64,000 nucleotides of DNA. It comes from Fusobacteria bacterium ZRK30 (lineage in GTDB: Bacteria; Fusobacteriota; Fusobacteriia; Fusobacteriales; Fusobacteriaceae). The stretch is taken from contig CP102405.1 of NCBI GenBank assembly GCA_024628785.1, forward strand, positions 806,001 through 870,000, in the 5' to 3' direction. The notes under the pieces were generated by a model. It was not told the origin of the DNA, searched no databases, and saw only the letters and a list, made by a program, of their open reading frames with translations. Shown one piece after another: positions 30,226 to 35,647 of this stretch (position 1 is the stretch's first letter; every line of letters begins with the position of its first letter). Both the position numbers and the translations under genes were made by a program.

Positions 30226-31884
30226 TCACCCCTTCAGCAGTTCTTTTGCATGTTTTTTTACACTGTCACTGACCTGATCTCCTGCCAGCATTCGTGCGAT
30301 CTCATCTATCCTCTCTTCTGGATTTAGATTTTTTACTGTGGCTATAGTTTTTCCCTGGATATTTTTTTTCTTAATATAAAATTGCTGGCTGGCCTTAGCT
30401 GCAATTGCAGGGGAATGGGTTATACATATGATCTGGGCATTCTCTCCGATATCATACAATTTATCCGCTATCTTTCTAACTGTCTCTCCTCCTACCCCAG
30501 TATCGATCTCGTCAAATACCAGTATAGGAACATTATCTACAGCTGAAAATATTACCTTTAGAGCCAGCATGATCCTGCTCATCTCTCCTCCGGAAACTAC
30601 CTTGGCAAGGGGTTTCATCTCCTGCCCCAGGTTGGGAGCAATCATGAACTCTACTATATCTATTCCAGATCTTGAGATCTTCTCATCGACTTTAAAATCG
30701 ACCTTAAATCTGGCATCTTTCATATTTAAATATATTAGTTCAGAGGTAAGGTGCTCCTCGATCAGTTTAGCTTTGGTCTTACGGACAGCAGAGAGTTTAC
30801 CAGCGATCTCCTTATATTTTTTTAGGAGATCTTGTATTTTTTTATTTAACTTTTTTTCCTCAAAATCACTTTCATCCAAAAGATCCAATTCATTTTTTAT
30901 CTTATCCCGATATCCTAAAATTTCTGAGATATCTTCTCCGTATTTTTTCTTGAGATTGTTTATCTTGTCTAATCTGTCCACTACAGCGTTGAGCCGGTAC
31001 TCATCTACATCCATATTATCCTGAATGTTTTCTATATTGTATGTGAGATCCTCAACTTCGTAGTAGATTTTTTCTACTTTCTCAAAGATGGCCTCATAGT
31101 CTTTTCCATATTGGGAGAGGGTCTCCATATTTTTTTTCACACTGTGGAGTAAAGAGGTTACGTTTACCTCTCCGTCACTTATACTATAGTAGGAATTTTT
31201 TAATTTTTCAGTAATCTTACCGGCATTAAAAAGGATCTTATATTCATCTTCTAATTCCTCATCCTCATTTTTAGATAAGTTTACCTCTTCGATTTCTGCT
31301 AACTGATATTCATAGAGATCTTTTTTCTCTTTGATATTGTTTCTTGTTTCCGAAAGCTGTATTAGGAGTCTATGGACCTCCTCATAATTAGAGACAATAT
31401 CTCCCAGCTGATCTTTGATAAGGTGTTCATCTTTATTTAAAAATCTATCGATTAATTTTATATGATTTCCCCTATGGAGGAGCATCTGGTGGGAATGCTG
31501 ACCTACAATATCTACCAAGGTTCCCATAATCTCCTTTAGGTTGCTCATGGGAACTCTTCTGCCATTTACAAAAGCTTTTCCGCGGCCATTGGATTCCATC
31601 CTTCTTTGGACAATTATTTCATTATTTTCCACATCTATCCCCATCTCATGGAGTTCTTCTGCCTGATTTTCATTGGCATCAAAGACACCTTCAGCCAAAA
31701 GATAGTCAGCCCCATCTCTAAGCATCTCCATATTAGTTTTTTCACCAATAAGGAGGTTGATACCTGTAAGGATAATCGATTTTCCTGCTCCTGTCTCACC
31801 TGTGAGAGCTATTAATTTATCTTGAAATTCTAATTCTAATTTATCTATAATTGCTAAATTTTCAATTCGAAGTTCCCTTAACAT
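30226..31884 (-). CDS. recN: DNA repair protein RecN
   Basis: 552 residues of the SMC-like double-strand-break repair protein. Walker A is GETGAGKSI at residues 30-38. A long coiled-coil middle is interrupted by a short hinge. The C-terminal ABC signature VSGGEMSR and Walker B ILVFDEIDTGVGGE are intact. It overlaps nadK by 7 nt and ends 4 bp before the recombinase start, so these three genes are one transcript. Confidence 0.96.
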   Translation of the reverse strand: MLRELRIENLAIIDKLELEFQDKLIALTGETGAGKSIILTGINLLIGEKTNMEMLRDGADYLLAEGVFDANENQAEELHEMGIDVENNEIIVQRRMESNGRGKAFVNGRRVPMSNLKEIMGTLVDIVGQHSHQMLLHRGNHIKLIDRFLNKDEHLIKDQLGDIVSNYEEVHRLLIQLSETRNNIKEKKDLYEYQLAEIEEVNLSKNEDEELEDEYKILFNAGKITEKLKNSYYSISDGEVNVTSLLHSVKKNMETLSQYGKDYEAIFEKVEKIYYEVEDLTYNIENIQDNMDVDEYRLNAVVDRLDKINNLKKKYGEDISEILGYRDKIKNELDLLDESDFEEKKLNKKIQDLLKKYKEIAGKLSAVRKTKAKLIEEHLTSELIYLNMKDARFKVDFKVDEKISRSGIDIVEFMIAPNLGQEMKPLAKVVSGGEMSRIMLALKVIFSAVDNVPILVFDEIDTGVGGETVRKIADKLYDIGENAQIICITHSPAIAAKASQQFYIKKKNIQGKTIATVKNLNPEERIDEIARMLAGDQVSDSVKKHAKELLKG

Positions 31885-32672
31885 ATCTTATCTCCCCACT
31901 TTAATTTTTCCCTTAAAACAGAATAATAATTTCTCGACTTTGGCAGCACTAACTTTAGTTTTTTATCTGAATATCTGATCTTGATAATATCCTCTTTGGT
32001 AACCTCGATAGCGTCATCTCCATCGACAGCTATATAGGCGGAATCTTCTCTACCCTCTAATCTCAGTGTGATCTCCTCTTTCCCATCTACTATTATAGGT
32101 CTGGTGCTTAAGTTGTGTGGAGCGATAGGAGTAATTAAAAGTACATCCAAATTAGATCTGATGATGGGCCCTCCTGCTGAAAGGGAATAACCTGTTGATC
32201 CTGTAGGAGTAGCAACAATTAATCCATCTGCCCTGTATGTATTGATATAGTATTCCCCTGAAGCTCTAATTCTGATTAATTTTTGCAGGATTCCTCCCTT
32301 TGCCAGAACCACCTCATTGAGACCGGTATGTGTTTCTCCCCTGACTTCTACCTCCAACATGTGTCTTTCCTCTAACTTATAGTTGCCCATCAAAACATCT
32401 TCATAAACTTGAAGCGCTTCGATCCTCCTTATGTCTGTAAGAAATCCAAGACTTCCCATATTTACAGCAATAGCAAATTTGTTGTGATTAGCTATATCTT
32501 TGCTGGCCTGTAGGAGAGTTCCGTCTCCACCGATAACCACGACAAAAGCTGATCCCTCTATCTCTGACTGGACCTCTATACCGCAATTCTCGAAGAACTC
32601 TTTGGATACTTCATAAAATTTTATTGCATCTTTTTTAGAGGTATTATATATGATACATACCTTTTTTTTCAT
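31878..32672 (-). CDS. nadK: NAD kinase
   Basis: 264 residues. NAD kinase phosphorylates NAD to NADP. The conserved GGDGTLLQA motif, the LGFLTDI segment and TPTGSTGYSLSAGGPI are present. Length is normal for the short bacterial form. The ribosome binding site AGGGGGAG lies upstream. The 134-bp gap before it contains mutually exclusive hairpins that may regulate it. It is cotranscribed with recN. Confidence 0.95.
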   Translation of the reverse strand: MKKKVCIIYNTSKKDAIKFYEVSKEFFENCGIEVQSEIEGSAFVVVIGGDGTLLQASKDIANHNKFAIAVNMGSLGFLTDIRRIEALQVYEDVLMGNYKLEERHMLEVEVRGETHTGLNEVVLAKGGILQKLIRIRASGEYYINTYRADGLIVATPTGSTGYSLSAGGPIIRSNLDVLLITPIAPHNLSTRPIIVDGKEEITLRLEGREDSAYIAVDGDDAIEVTKEDIIKIRYSDKKLKLVLPKSRNYYSVLREKLKWGDKIC

Positions 32673-32806: not shown

Positions 32807-33925
32807 CTAAAAGTTATTTGGATTGGAAGATTTTAGGTTAAACCTTGTCTCATAATAAAGATATGATCTTCCATCGGAGTTAAGTCCTAAAATTCCGATT
32901 TCACTTCCTTTTCCTACGGTCTGCCCTAATTTTACATAGTTAGAGATTAGGTTTCCATAGATAGTGATCAAGTTATATCCATGGTCTATCATGACAACTT
33001 TTCCCATATTCATAAATTTACCTGCATAGATAACCTTACCCTTATTTGCAGAAACAACCCGATCTCCTAAGTTTCCTTGGATCTCCTGTCCTGAACTACG
33101 GATTCCACCGACCTTGGCCTGATTAAATCCAACCAGAACTTTTCCAGAGATAGGTTTTTTAAAACTTCCTAAGTTTTTGGCAACAGTGGAATAATTTACA
33201 TTTCCCAGCTGCTTGGTTCTGGTTCTGATTATATTATCGATCTCTTTTTCAATAGCAGCTTTTTGCTTTTGAAGGTTTGTTATCGTGTTTTTAGCCTGGT
33301 TTGTTTTAGCTGTTGTTATCTTCTTATCTTTATTATACTGGGCAATCAGGTTATTGTGTTGTCTCTTCTTACTCTCTTGCTGTCGTTCCTTATAAGCCAG
33401 TTGAGATTGGAGTTTTTTCAGATTTCTCTGCTCCTTTTCGATATCTTCTTTTACTTTTTTTATATTGTTTTGGACACTTTTTATCTCATCCTGTCTCTCC
33501 TGGTTGGCCTTTAGGATCTCCTTAAAATTATAGGTATCAATTTCATCGGTTATATCTTTTTTCTGCCACGACTGGAGCATAGCTACATAATCATTTTCCA
33601 TATTGGTAAGTTCTTTAGAACTAAATTTTAGATTCCGCTTACCATAATCTACCTTTCTGCTGACTACATCAATCTTTATCTTTAAGAGTTCTTTTTCACT
33701 TTCGATAATTTTTAATTCTTTTTCTACACGGATTATCTGTTCTTTTAGAGTTTCTGTTTTTTTATCTATAGTCTTGATTTTTTGAGCGTTTTTTTTGATC
33801 TCTTCACCTTTTCTTTTGATCTCGTTTTCAATCTGACTGATTTGATTTTTTTTTTCATCGATACTGTTAGAGAATGTATTTGTAGTAATAATCATCAAAG
33901 TCAGTAAAAATATTAGTTTTTTCAT
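32807..33925 (-). CDS. envC: EnvC-like murein hydrolase activator
   Basis: 372 residues: a signal peptide (about 1-19), a long coiled coil (about 20-240, alternating Lys/Glu/Gln heptads) and a C-terminal LytM/M23 domain. The zinc-binding His residues of active M23 peptidases are missing (LYYETR where HxH-type LHFEIR is expected). This fits the EnvC group, which activates amidases rather than cutting peptidoglycan. It lies directly after ftsX; FtsEX normally controls EnvC across the membrane. Confidence 0.85.
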   Translation of the reverse strand: MKKLIFLLTLMIITTNTFSNSIDEKKNQISQIENEIKRKGEEIKKNAQKIKTIDKKTETLKEQIIRVEKELKIIESEKELLKIKIDVVSRKVDYGKRNLKFSSKELTNMENDYVAMLQSWQKKDITDEIDTYNFKEILKANQERQDEIKSVQNNIKKVKEDIEKEQRNLKKLQSQLAYKERQQESKKRQHNNLIAQYNKDKKITTAKTNQAKNTITNLQKQKAAIEKEIDNIIRTRTKQLGNVNYSTVAKNLGSFKKPISGKVLVGFNQAKVGGIRSSGQEIQGNLGDRVVSANKGKVIYAGKFMNMGKVVMIDHGYNLITIYGNLISNYVKLGQTVGKGSEIGILGLNSDGRSYLYYETRFNLKSSNPNNF

Positions 33926-33929
33926 AGAT

Positions 33930-34781
33930 CTACCTCTTAACCTTTATTAAGTTAAAAGATACAAATGGAAAAATTAAACCGACAAGGAGAATGATAATCC
34001 CTACAACTATTCCAGCCTGGACGGTAGAAACTATATAGTTCAACCCGGCTATCTCACTTCGAATAAATTCATAGAGGTTTAAAAAGGTTAAACTTCCTAT
34101 AATTGCTGCTGAGATAAACTTTATATTATTTATAAAATAATAGGGTCTTAAGATCTCTCTTTTTTCCATACCCAGATATAATTTAGCTTCTATATCATGA
34201 TTTTGACTGACAACACTGCTATGCATTATATTAAATATCATTATTTTTATAGGAAGCAGTGTGATTAAGAGCAATCCAATTAGAAGTTTATTATTTCTTT
34301 TTATCTTTTCATCTAATTTAGTAACACTCTTTTTATTGATTACAACTTCTTTTACACCGTCGATCTCATCGATGATGACTTTTGCTTGATTCAGGTTTTT
34401 TTCTCCCTCAGTCTTTACGACAAATGAGTTTAAGAGAGGGTTACCTATCCCACGATTACTGAGACCTAGTTGATCAGCTAATTTTTTAAATGCTAACTCT
34501 TTATTTATATAGCTGATTTGTTCGATACCATCAAGGGTTAAAATGTTTTTTTCAATCTTCTCAATACTATTTTGAGAGACGTTGTTATTCATATACACGC
34601 TGAGAGTATAACTTTTGTTTAAAGTTTTATTGCTTTGATAGATGTTATAGATAGAGATAACGCTTATATTAAAAAATAAAAATGCAAAGATCAAAGTAGT
34701 AAAACTAAGAGTATAGTAGGTTATATTTTTTTGGATTAATTCATTTATCTCGGTATTCATTTGACGTATTTTTTTAAACAT
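33930..34781 (-). CDS. ftsX: Cell division protein FtsX
   Basis: 283 residues with four membrane helices: one near 25-48 and three in the C-terminal third. Between the first two lies a large extracytoplasmic domain (about 50-170), which in other bacteria binds EnvC. The cytoplasmic N-terminus is short. It overlaps ftsE by 8 nt and stops 4 nt before envC, so ftsE-ftsX-envC is one unit. The protein looks intact, unlike its FtsE partner. Confidence 0.88.
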   Translation of the reverse strand: MFKKIRQMNTEINELIQKNITYYTLSFTTLIFAFLFFNISVISIYNIYQSNKTLNKSYTLSVYMNNNVSQNSIEKIEKNILTLDGIEQISYINKELAFKKLADQLGLSNRGIGNPLLNSFVVKTEGEKNLNQAKVIIDEIDGVKEVVINKKSVTKLDEKIKRNNKLLIGLLLITLLPIKIMIFNIMHSSVVSQNHDIEAKLYLGMEKREILRPYYFINNIKFISAAIIGSLTFLNLYEFIRSEIAGLNYIVSTVQAGIVVGIIILLVGLIFPFVSFNLIKVKR

Positions 34782-35424
34782 TGGATATTGCTCCCTTCTC
34801 TAAGATATATTTATCACAATTTATCATATTTTCAATTTTTTTATTGTTGGTAAAAATTACTATGGTTTTGCCCTTGCTGTTGAGATCCTGGAAATATTTC
34901 ATTAAACTCTCAATTTTTTCAATTTTTAAATGAATTTGAGGATTATCCAAGATGATTAATTCAGGATCTAAAACCAGAGATCTGGCGATGTTAAGTCTTT
35001 GCTTTTCCTCTAAATTCAGAGTTGTTAAAGAATTATTTTTTTTATCTAAAAGACCAAAATTTTTTAACTGTTTTTCACCTGTTTCAATGAGTTTCTTAGG
35101 AGGTAATTTTGTATGGATCTCCAAAGGAAGAGTTATATTTCCCATGACATCTTTTGTTTGTATAAGCTTAAAATCTTCAAAACAAATTCCTATTCTTTTA
35201 TGAATTATTTTTGAACGACAATTAAACTTAGAGAGGTTTTTTCCTCCGATTATGATACCTCCGGATTTAGGGATATCCAGCTGGCAGATTAAGTCGATTA
35301 TCTTATCTTTTTCTGTTTTAGATCTATAATTTAAAAGGATAAATTTTCCATTTGAAACATTTAAATTTAAATTATTAAGATGGGGTTTCTTCTCATTAGT
35401 AGTTATATTTTTAAATTTTAACAT
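34774..35424 (-). CDS. ftsE: FtsE-like protein with degenerate ATPase motifs
   Basis: 216 residues aligning end to end with FtsE ABC ATPases, next to ftsX. Almost every nucleotide motif is altered. Walker A is NYRSKTEKDK (32-41) instead of GxSGxGKST, with only Lys39 kept. The Q-loop Gln is Glu83 (CFEDF). The signature is LNLEEKQR (136-143) instead of LSGGEQQR. Walker B keeps Asp160 but the catalytic Glu is Asn161 (LDNPQ). The switch His is Asn193 (FTNN). The reading frame is open and partners are retained, so it is probably a non-hydrolysing pseudo-ATPase scaffold rather than a dead gene. Confidence 0.85.
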   Translation of the reverse strand: MLKFKNITTNEKKPHLNNLNLNVSNGKFILLNYRSKTEKDKIIDLICQLDIPKSGGIIIGGKNLSKFNCRSKIIHKRIGICFEDFKLIQTKDVMGNITLPLEIHTKLPPKKLIETGEKQLKNFGLLDKKNNSLTTLNLEEKQRLNIARSLVLDPELIILDNPQIHLKIEKIESLMKYFQDLNSKGKTIVIFTNNKKIENMINCDKYILEKGAISNV

Positions 35425-35647
35425 ATTGATTTCTCCTATGAAACAAGAGTTGATAATTGAAAGTTTACAGATAGAAAATAACTACCTATTTATCATTAAA
35501 TTATATCAATATTAAGAGGATAAGGTCAATTTTCTTTTTTTCTTGATTTAAACCTTCCAATACTCTAAAATTAAAAGAGAAAACCTTTGTTATGAAGAGT
35601 ATTAAAGTAAAGAAAGAAAACCTTAGTTAGTAAAACAAAAGGAGTAA

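Follow-up and report, generated by a model that had tools for sequence, protein, structure and literature searches.

In the usual picture, FtsEX is a mechanotransducer: FtsE hydrolyses ATP, and this drives the activation of the amidase. The cytoplasmic loop between transmembrane segments 2 and 3 (TM2–TM3) of FtsX is the main FtsE contact in Escherichia coli and the pneumococcus (PMC11139282; PMC7468199), and known EnvC carries a LytM domain without zinc ligands (PMC11627006). Fusobacterium nucleatum has no ftsE next to ftsX, yet its FtsX and EnvC function in division (PMC5915739). We analysed a stretch of 64,000 nucleotides (nt) from Fusobacteria bacterium ZRK30 (assembly GCA_024628785.1, contig CP102405.1, positions 806,001 to 870,000; hereafter, the window), in which an ftsE homologue sits immediately upstream of ftsX in an ftsE–ftsX–envC operon. 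Every nucleotide-handling motif of the encoded protein is replaced, and the gene is maintained by selection. We consider it probable that this pseudo-ATPase FtsE is a nucleotide-independent structural subunit that holds FtsX–EnvC at the division site, and that it marks a late step towards an FtsE-free FtsX such as that of F. nucleatum.

The ftsE homologue (216 amino acids, aa, plus stop) occupies window positions 34774..35424 on the minus strand, as do all features located below. Its motifs were read against E. coli FtsE, checked at full length against PDB 8w6i/8hd0, and against two intact fusobacterial FtsE proteins (genomes G025 and G026). At Walker A, GHSGAGKST has become YRSKTEKDK, within the remnant NYRSKTEKDK (residues 32–41, 35302..35331): the glycines are all gone, both Ser/Thr residues are gone, and Lys39 is retained. 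The signature LSGGEQ is replaced by LNLEEK (residues 136–141, 35002..35019). In the Walker B remnant ELIILDNP (residues 155–162, 34939..34962), the catalytic Glu is Asn161 and Asp160 is retained, and in the switch remnant FTNNK (residues 191–195, 34840..34854), the His is Asn193. The Q-loop Gln is Glu83, within CFEDFKLIQTK (residues 81–91, 35152..35184), a stretch that also forms part of the FtsX-docking groove as positioned from PMC7468199. The A-loop is shortened. The protein lacks the motif set for ATP hydrolysis (Walker A, signature, Walker B Glu, Q-loop, and switch His), and each of the residue replacements listed in a first-pass annotation of the window held in the alignment; the retained Lys39 was not among the points of that annotation. 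Similar substitutions recur in seven genomes of the genus, which argues that the motif loss is neither chance nor sequencing error.

Conservation differed between parts of the former nucleotide site. The Gly-to-Glu38 replacement and the retained Lys39 occurred without exception in the 12 pseudo-FtsE proteins of Fusobacteriaceae, and Asp160 was conserved among the proteins of this family save for one Asp-to-Glu change. The Q-loop residue drifts among the pseudo-FtsE genera (G, N, D, or E), and apart from this position the stretch 81–91 is well conserved among them. The other two parts of the docking cavity are not conserved (0.14 and 0.28).

The gene was present in seven genomes of the genus, with the other six copies 52–94% identical to that in the window. 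In the window, the ftsE stop and the ftsX start overlap by 8 nt (34774–34781), and the same overlap was found in the six other genomes. The ratio of nonsynonymous to synonymous substitution rates (dN/dS) for ftsE ranged from 0.065 to 0.156 over nine pairs within the genus, and was 0.095 (bootstrap 0.04–0.20) for the closest pair. These values are near those of FtsX (0.05–0.11); NAD kinase, also used for comparison, gave 0.035–0.14. In the Ilyobacter group, ftsE was somewhat relaxed (0.12–0.21 vs. 0.05–0.06 for FtsX). We conclude that ftsE is under purifying selection and is not decaying, with no relaxation in the genus. The first-pass annotation had taken the open frame and the overlap with ftsX as signs against decay; the recurrence of the overlap in seven genomes and the low dN/dS bear this out.

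Operon position, profile, and predicted fold identify the protein as FtsE. TIGR02673 FtsE headed the 166 NCBIfam matches (127.1 bits, 7.5e-37) and missed its cut-off of 264.85, as did the intact FtsE proteins of G025 and G026 (249 and 218 bits). An AlphaFold2 model built from an 11-sequence alignment reached a pLDDT of 87.6 and a pTM of 0.85, with an input that included distant intact ABC proteins, some encoded in the window and others on viral contigs, so that the alignment itself imports the ABC fold. A shallower alignment, with three close relatives and a single further ABC protein, gave a pLDDT of 59.9 and a poor N-terminal half. The nearest solved structure by VIA-align was the E. coli FtsE of FtsEX–EnvC (8hd0_A; Z 29.8, rmsd 1.6, 215 residues). 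Other ABC domains scored nearly equally, and thus, the predicted fold is that of an ABC domain, with FtsE not singled out by fold alone.

The FtsX TM2–TM3 cytoplasmic loop (FtsX residues 188–216, 34134..34220) carries the coupling-helix motif DIEAKLYLG. The motif [DE]-[IV]...G was kept in 11 of 11 readable FtsX proteins encoded beside a pseudo-FtsE (a twelfth was cut by a contig end) and in all those beside a partial or intact FtsE. It was lost in every one of the 45 FtsE-less Fusobacteriaceae FtsX proteins, with a three-residue deletion in 41 of these.

The motif survey covered Fusobacteriota (98 genomes). FtsX_ECD was detected in 79 of these, and ftsE preceded ftsX only in genera g1 (the genus of ZRK30), g5, g10, g14, g15, g16, and g21. 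Intact FtsE motifs were confined to g15 and g16, two outlying lineages. Four basal Fusobacteriaceae genera, including that of ZRK30 and that of Ilyobacter polytropus (G047), encode a pseudo-FtsE with nearly all motifs lost. In the remaining FtsX-bearing genomes, no ftsE adjoined ftsX, a few loci lying too near a contig end to show the upstream gene. Sebaldella FtsE still has GKST, the Q-loop Gln, and Asp-Glu at Walker B, but its signature Gly and switch His are lost; its sequence suggests that it is possibly a bind-only form, and its route to ATPase loss was apparently independent. In this Sebaldella group (g21; L089, L096, L080, and L081), the signature reads LSYQEK. Alignment of FtsE across the phylum, proposed in the first-pass annotation as a check on whether the loss is lineage-wide, thus gave a stepwise picture, with intact-motif relatives only in outlying lineages. 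No FtsX extracellular domain was detectable in 13 of 13 genomes scanned from genus g17, which is presumably Leptotrichia. The one g17 genome that we examined for amidases (G030) encodes four Amidase_3 proteins.

On a tree of EnvC and NAD kinase, g10, then g1, then g5 together with g14 branched successively below a crown whose members are uniformly without ftsE (support 99/94 and 97/94). Constraining the degenerate genera to one clade was 22.8 log units worse (p-AU 0.041), and this topology was weakly rejected. A grade of pseudo-FtsE genera beneath the FtsE-less crown is likely, but not certain. On a tree of ABC proteins, the pseudo-FtsE proteins formed one clade (support 95). Given the grade and the single protein clade, a single origin of the dead FtsE, in the stem of the main Fusobacteriaceae, is most likely; the protein would then have persisted across several genera before the gene was lost. 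Leptotrichiaceae lost ftsE independently. Two small groups outside the main Fusobacteriaceae, g3 (L140 and L141) and g7 (L145 and L147), also have FtsX without FtsE and sit on long branches, some of their loci beginning near a contig end; ftsE loss in these groups may have been a separate event.

We searched the ZRK30 genome for a second copy of either subunit. The FtsX_ECD scan returned one real match, at this locus, and no second FtsX. The FtsE profile matched 96 proteins, i.e., many ABC ATPases; when the ten best were placed on a tree, all fell within other ABC families, and none of them was a further FtsE. Most of these ten adjoin their own permease. A second intact FtsE, which the first-pass annotation had named as an observation that would overturn its reading, was accordingly not found among the ten best ABC matches. 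A degenerate-site heterodimer of the window FtsE with an active ATPase was also considered and rejected, because a chain that has lost Walker A as well as the signature would leave both composite sites broken.

In the arrangement that we propose, the pseudo-FtsE would keep the fold of an ABC nucleotide-binding domain and dock on the FtsX coupling helix, without ATP hydrolysis and, most likely, without the usual ATP binding. FtsX and the pseudo-FtsE would form a nucleotide-independent complex that positions EnvC, a LytM activator lacking zinc ligands, at the septum, and EnvC placed there would switch on the amidase. Amidase timing would be set by recruitment (of FtsX/FtsE to the Z ring, and of other divisome proteins as they arrive) rather than by an ATPase cycle. 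In the Fusobacteriaceae crown, the scaffold would have become dispensable, with ftsE lost and the FtsX coupling helix lost along with it. We infer that the protein neither binds nor hydrolyses ATP, that it forms a complex with FtsX, and that it acts on EnvC and the amidase. The first-pass annotation had started from the premise that E. coli FtsE needs ATP hydrolysis for EnvC-dependent amidase activation, which is too strong: ATPase-dead E. coli FtsEX does block septal synthesis via FtsA, but when this block is bypassed and NlpD is present, it still promotes EnvC-dependent cell separation (PMC7343993). Since ATPase-dead FtsEX acts under such bypass conditions, a lineage without the FtsA block could drop hydrolysis.

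Several observations weigh against a nucleotide-independent structural role. The retained Lys39 and Asp160 make weak or unusual nucleotide binding possible, and the Ilyobacter relatives G020 and G085 retain the catalytic Glu. Retention of the coupling helix is what would be expected if the dead FtsE still docks; however, the tree implies just one or two losses of the helix in Fusobacteriaceae, which makes the correlation phylogenetically thin: it is supportive, not proof. The helix is also kept in 11 of 13 readable FtsX proteins of FtsE-less Leptotrichiaceae (e.g., L119, L099, and L079), where it is conceivable that another partner, maybe a different ABC ATPase, docks on it. Finally, an ABC ATP-binding protein of the cation type, HMPREF0397_1681, was recovered in a pull-down with F. 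nucleatum FtsX (Wu et al., PMC5915739), making a substitute ATPase possible. This protein, the Leptotrichiaceae helices, and the 96 FtsE-profile matches all favour a reading in which some other, intact ABC ATPase encoded in the genome powers FtsX, alone or paired with the pseudo-FtsE. The first-pass annotation had already raised the idea of a different ATPase as power source. We regard this reading as unlikely. If a substitute docked on the helix, the helix should outlast ftsE, whereas in Fusobacteriaceae the two vanish together; the ten best candidates fall outside the FtsE group and mostly have permeases of their own. Because the helix is kept in this family exactly where the pseudo-FtsE is kept, and a heterodimer would lack both composite sites, the ATP-independent scaffold appears preferable among the two explanations that the first-pass annotation had offered.

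Retained binding could also mean that the pseudo-FtsE works as a nucleotide-sensing, non-hydrolysing switch. The invariant Lys39 and the near-invariant Asp160 would fit such a role, and the Sebaldella protein, with GKST and the catalytic Glu kept and the signature and switch His lost, is a plausible bind-only intermediate. However, the P-loop has lost every glycine along with the Mg-binding Ser/Thr, the A-loop is shortened, the Q-loop residue is free to vary, and Glu38 would occupy the phosphate site, which makes the switch improbable in our view. The same Glu38 admits a different, likewise unlikely, reading: fixed beside Lys39, it may fill the old phosphate site and lock FtsE in a closed form resembling the ATP-bound one. 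FtsEX would then be constitutively "on" as an ATP-free activator of EnvC, and first hydrolysis, then the whole of FtsE, would have become unnecessary in the ancestor of the FtsE-less Fusobacteriaceae. It is very improbable that the gene is decaying, with its frame open only because ftsX translation depends on ftsE. The lost catalytic motifs, the absence of the gene from the crown clade, the conserved 8-nt overlap, and the raised dN/dS of the Ilyobacter relatives would all suit decay, but values near 0.1 across the genus contradict it, and we rejected it on this ground. Glu38-Lys39 and part of the FtsX-docking groove are, moreover, conserved across genera, and ftsE was retained through several successive branchings. 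The structural-subunit reading, which we prefer, draws on the motif loss, the purifying selection, the single FtsX with no other FtsE found, the stepwise distribution, the retained docking helix, the predicted fold, the zinc-less EnvC, the presence of an amidase and of FtsA, and the precedents from E. coli and F. nucleatum.

An AGGAG ribosome-binding site (35433..35437) lies 9–13 nt upstream of the ftsE ATG, and AGGAG or GGAGG precedes ftsE in five further genomes of the genus (six sequences examined in all). The ftsX gene (283 aa, 33930..34781) encodes the single FtsX of the genome, whose extracellular domain passed the PF18075 cut-off (51.3 bits vs. 23.5). It is followed by a gene for an EnvC-like amidase activator (32807..33925) with a coiled coil and a LytM/M23 domain whose zinc ligands are replaced; this protein scored 41.7 bits against the NCBIfam EnvC model NF008644, below the threshold of 270. 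A NAD kinase gene comes after envC (31878..32672). Elsewhere, the genome encodes FtsA, a single Amidase_3 protein, and additional M23 proteins.

We found no prior report in the open-access literature of a pseudo-ATPase FtsE, of FtsE in connection with Ilyobacter, or of a degenerate or ATP-independent FtsEX. At the level of the phylum, the ATPase appears to have been removed in steps: the signature and switch in Sebaldella; the whole site, with the protein kept, in the genus of ZRK30, Ilyobacter, and two more genera; and the gene together with the docking helix in the other Fusobacteriaceae. This series amounts to an experiment of nature in which what FtsE does as a scaffold is set apart from what it does as an ATPase. 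As I. polytropus, a sequenced type strain, has the pseudo-ATPase, the question is testable.

The closest described relatives of the window system are the FtsEX–EnvC type VII ABC systems of E. coli (8hd0/8w6i), Vibrio cholerae (8tzj), and Streptococcus pneumoniae (6z63). The window locus is like them in operon order, FtsE length, predicted fold, and docking groove, as well as in the FtsX coupling helix and extracellular domain and the zinc-less EnvC; it differs in an FtsE with all nucleotide motifs replaced, scoring 127 bits against a cut-off of 265. With the F. nucleatum FtsX–EnvC system (Wu et al. 2018, PMC5915739), it shares the phylum, the gene order ftsX–envC–nadK, and a division role for FtsX and EnvC with no FtsE ATPase encoded at the locus. 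F. nucleatum has no ftsE there, whereas the window has a dead but constrained one and has kept the FtsX docking helix, which offers a history for the unexplained lack of ftsE in F. nucleatum. The E. coli FtsE D162N X mutant (Du et al. 2020, PMC7343993) is a non-hydrolysing FtsEX that still promotes separation under some conditions, as the window complex would be expected to do. The mutant is a single-site laboratory variant thought to be ATP-locked and division-blocking, whereas the window FtsE is natural and fixed, and its binding site is dismantled. Degenerate-site heterodimeric ABC proteins, such as TM287/288 and CFTR, likewise have a selected ABC domain with catalytic motifs lost, and they keep one working composite site; the window chain differs in having lost both Walker A and the signature. 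An FtsE-less FtsX was already known from F. nucleatum; the new element is a conserved pseudo-ATPase FtsE standing between the intact and the FtsE-less states.
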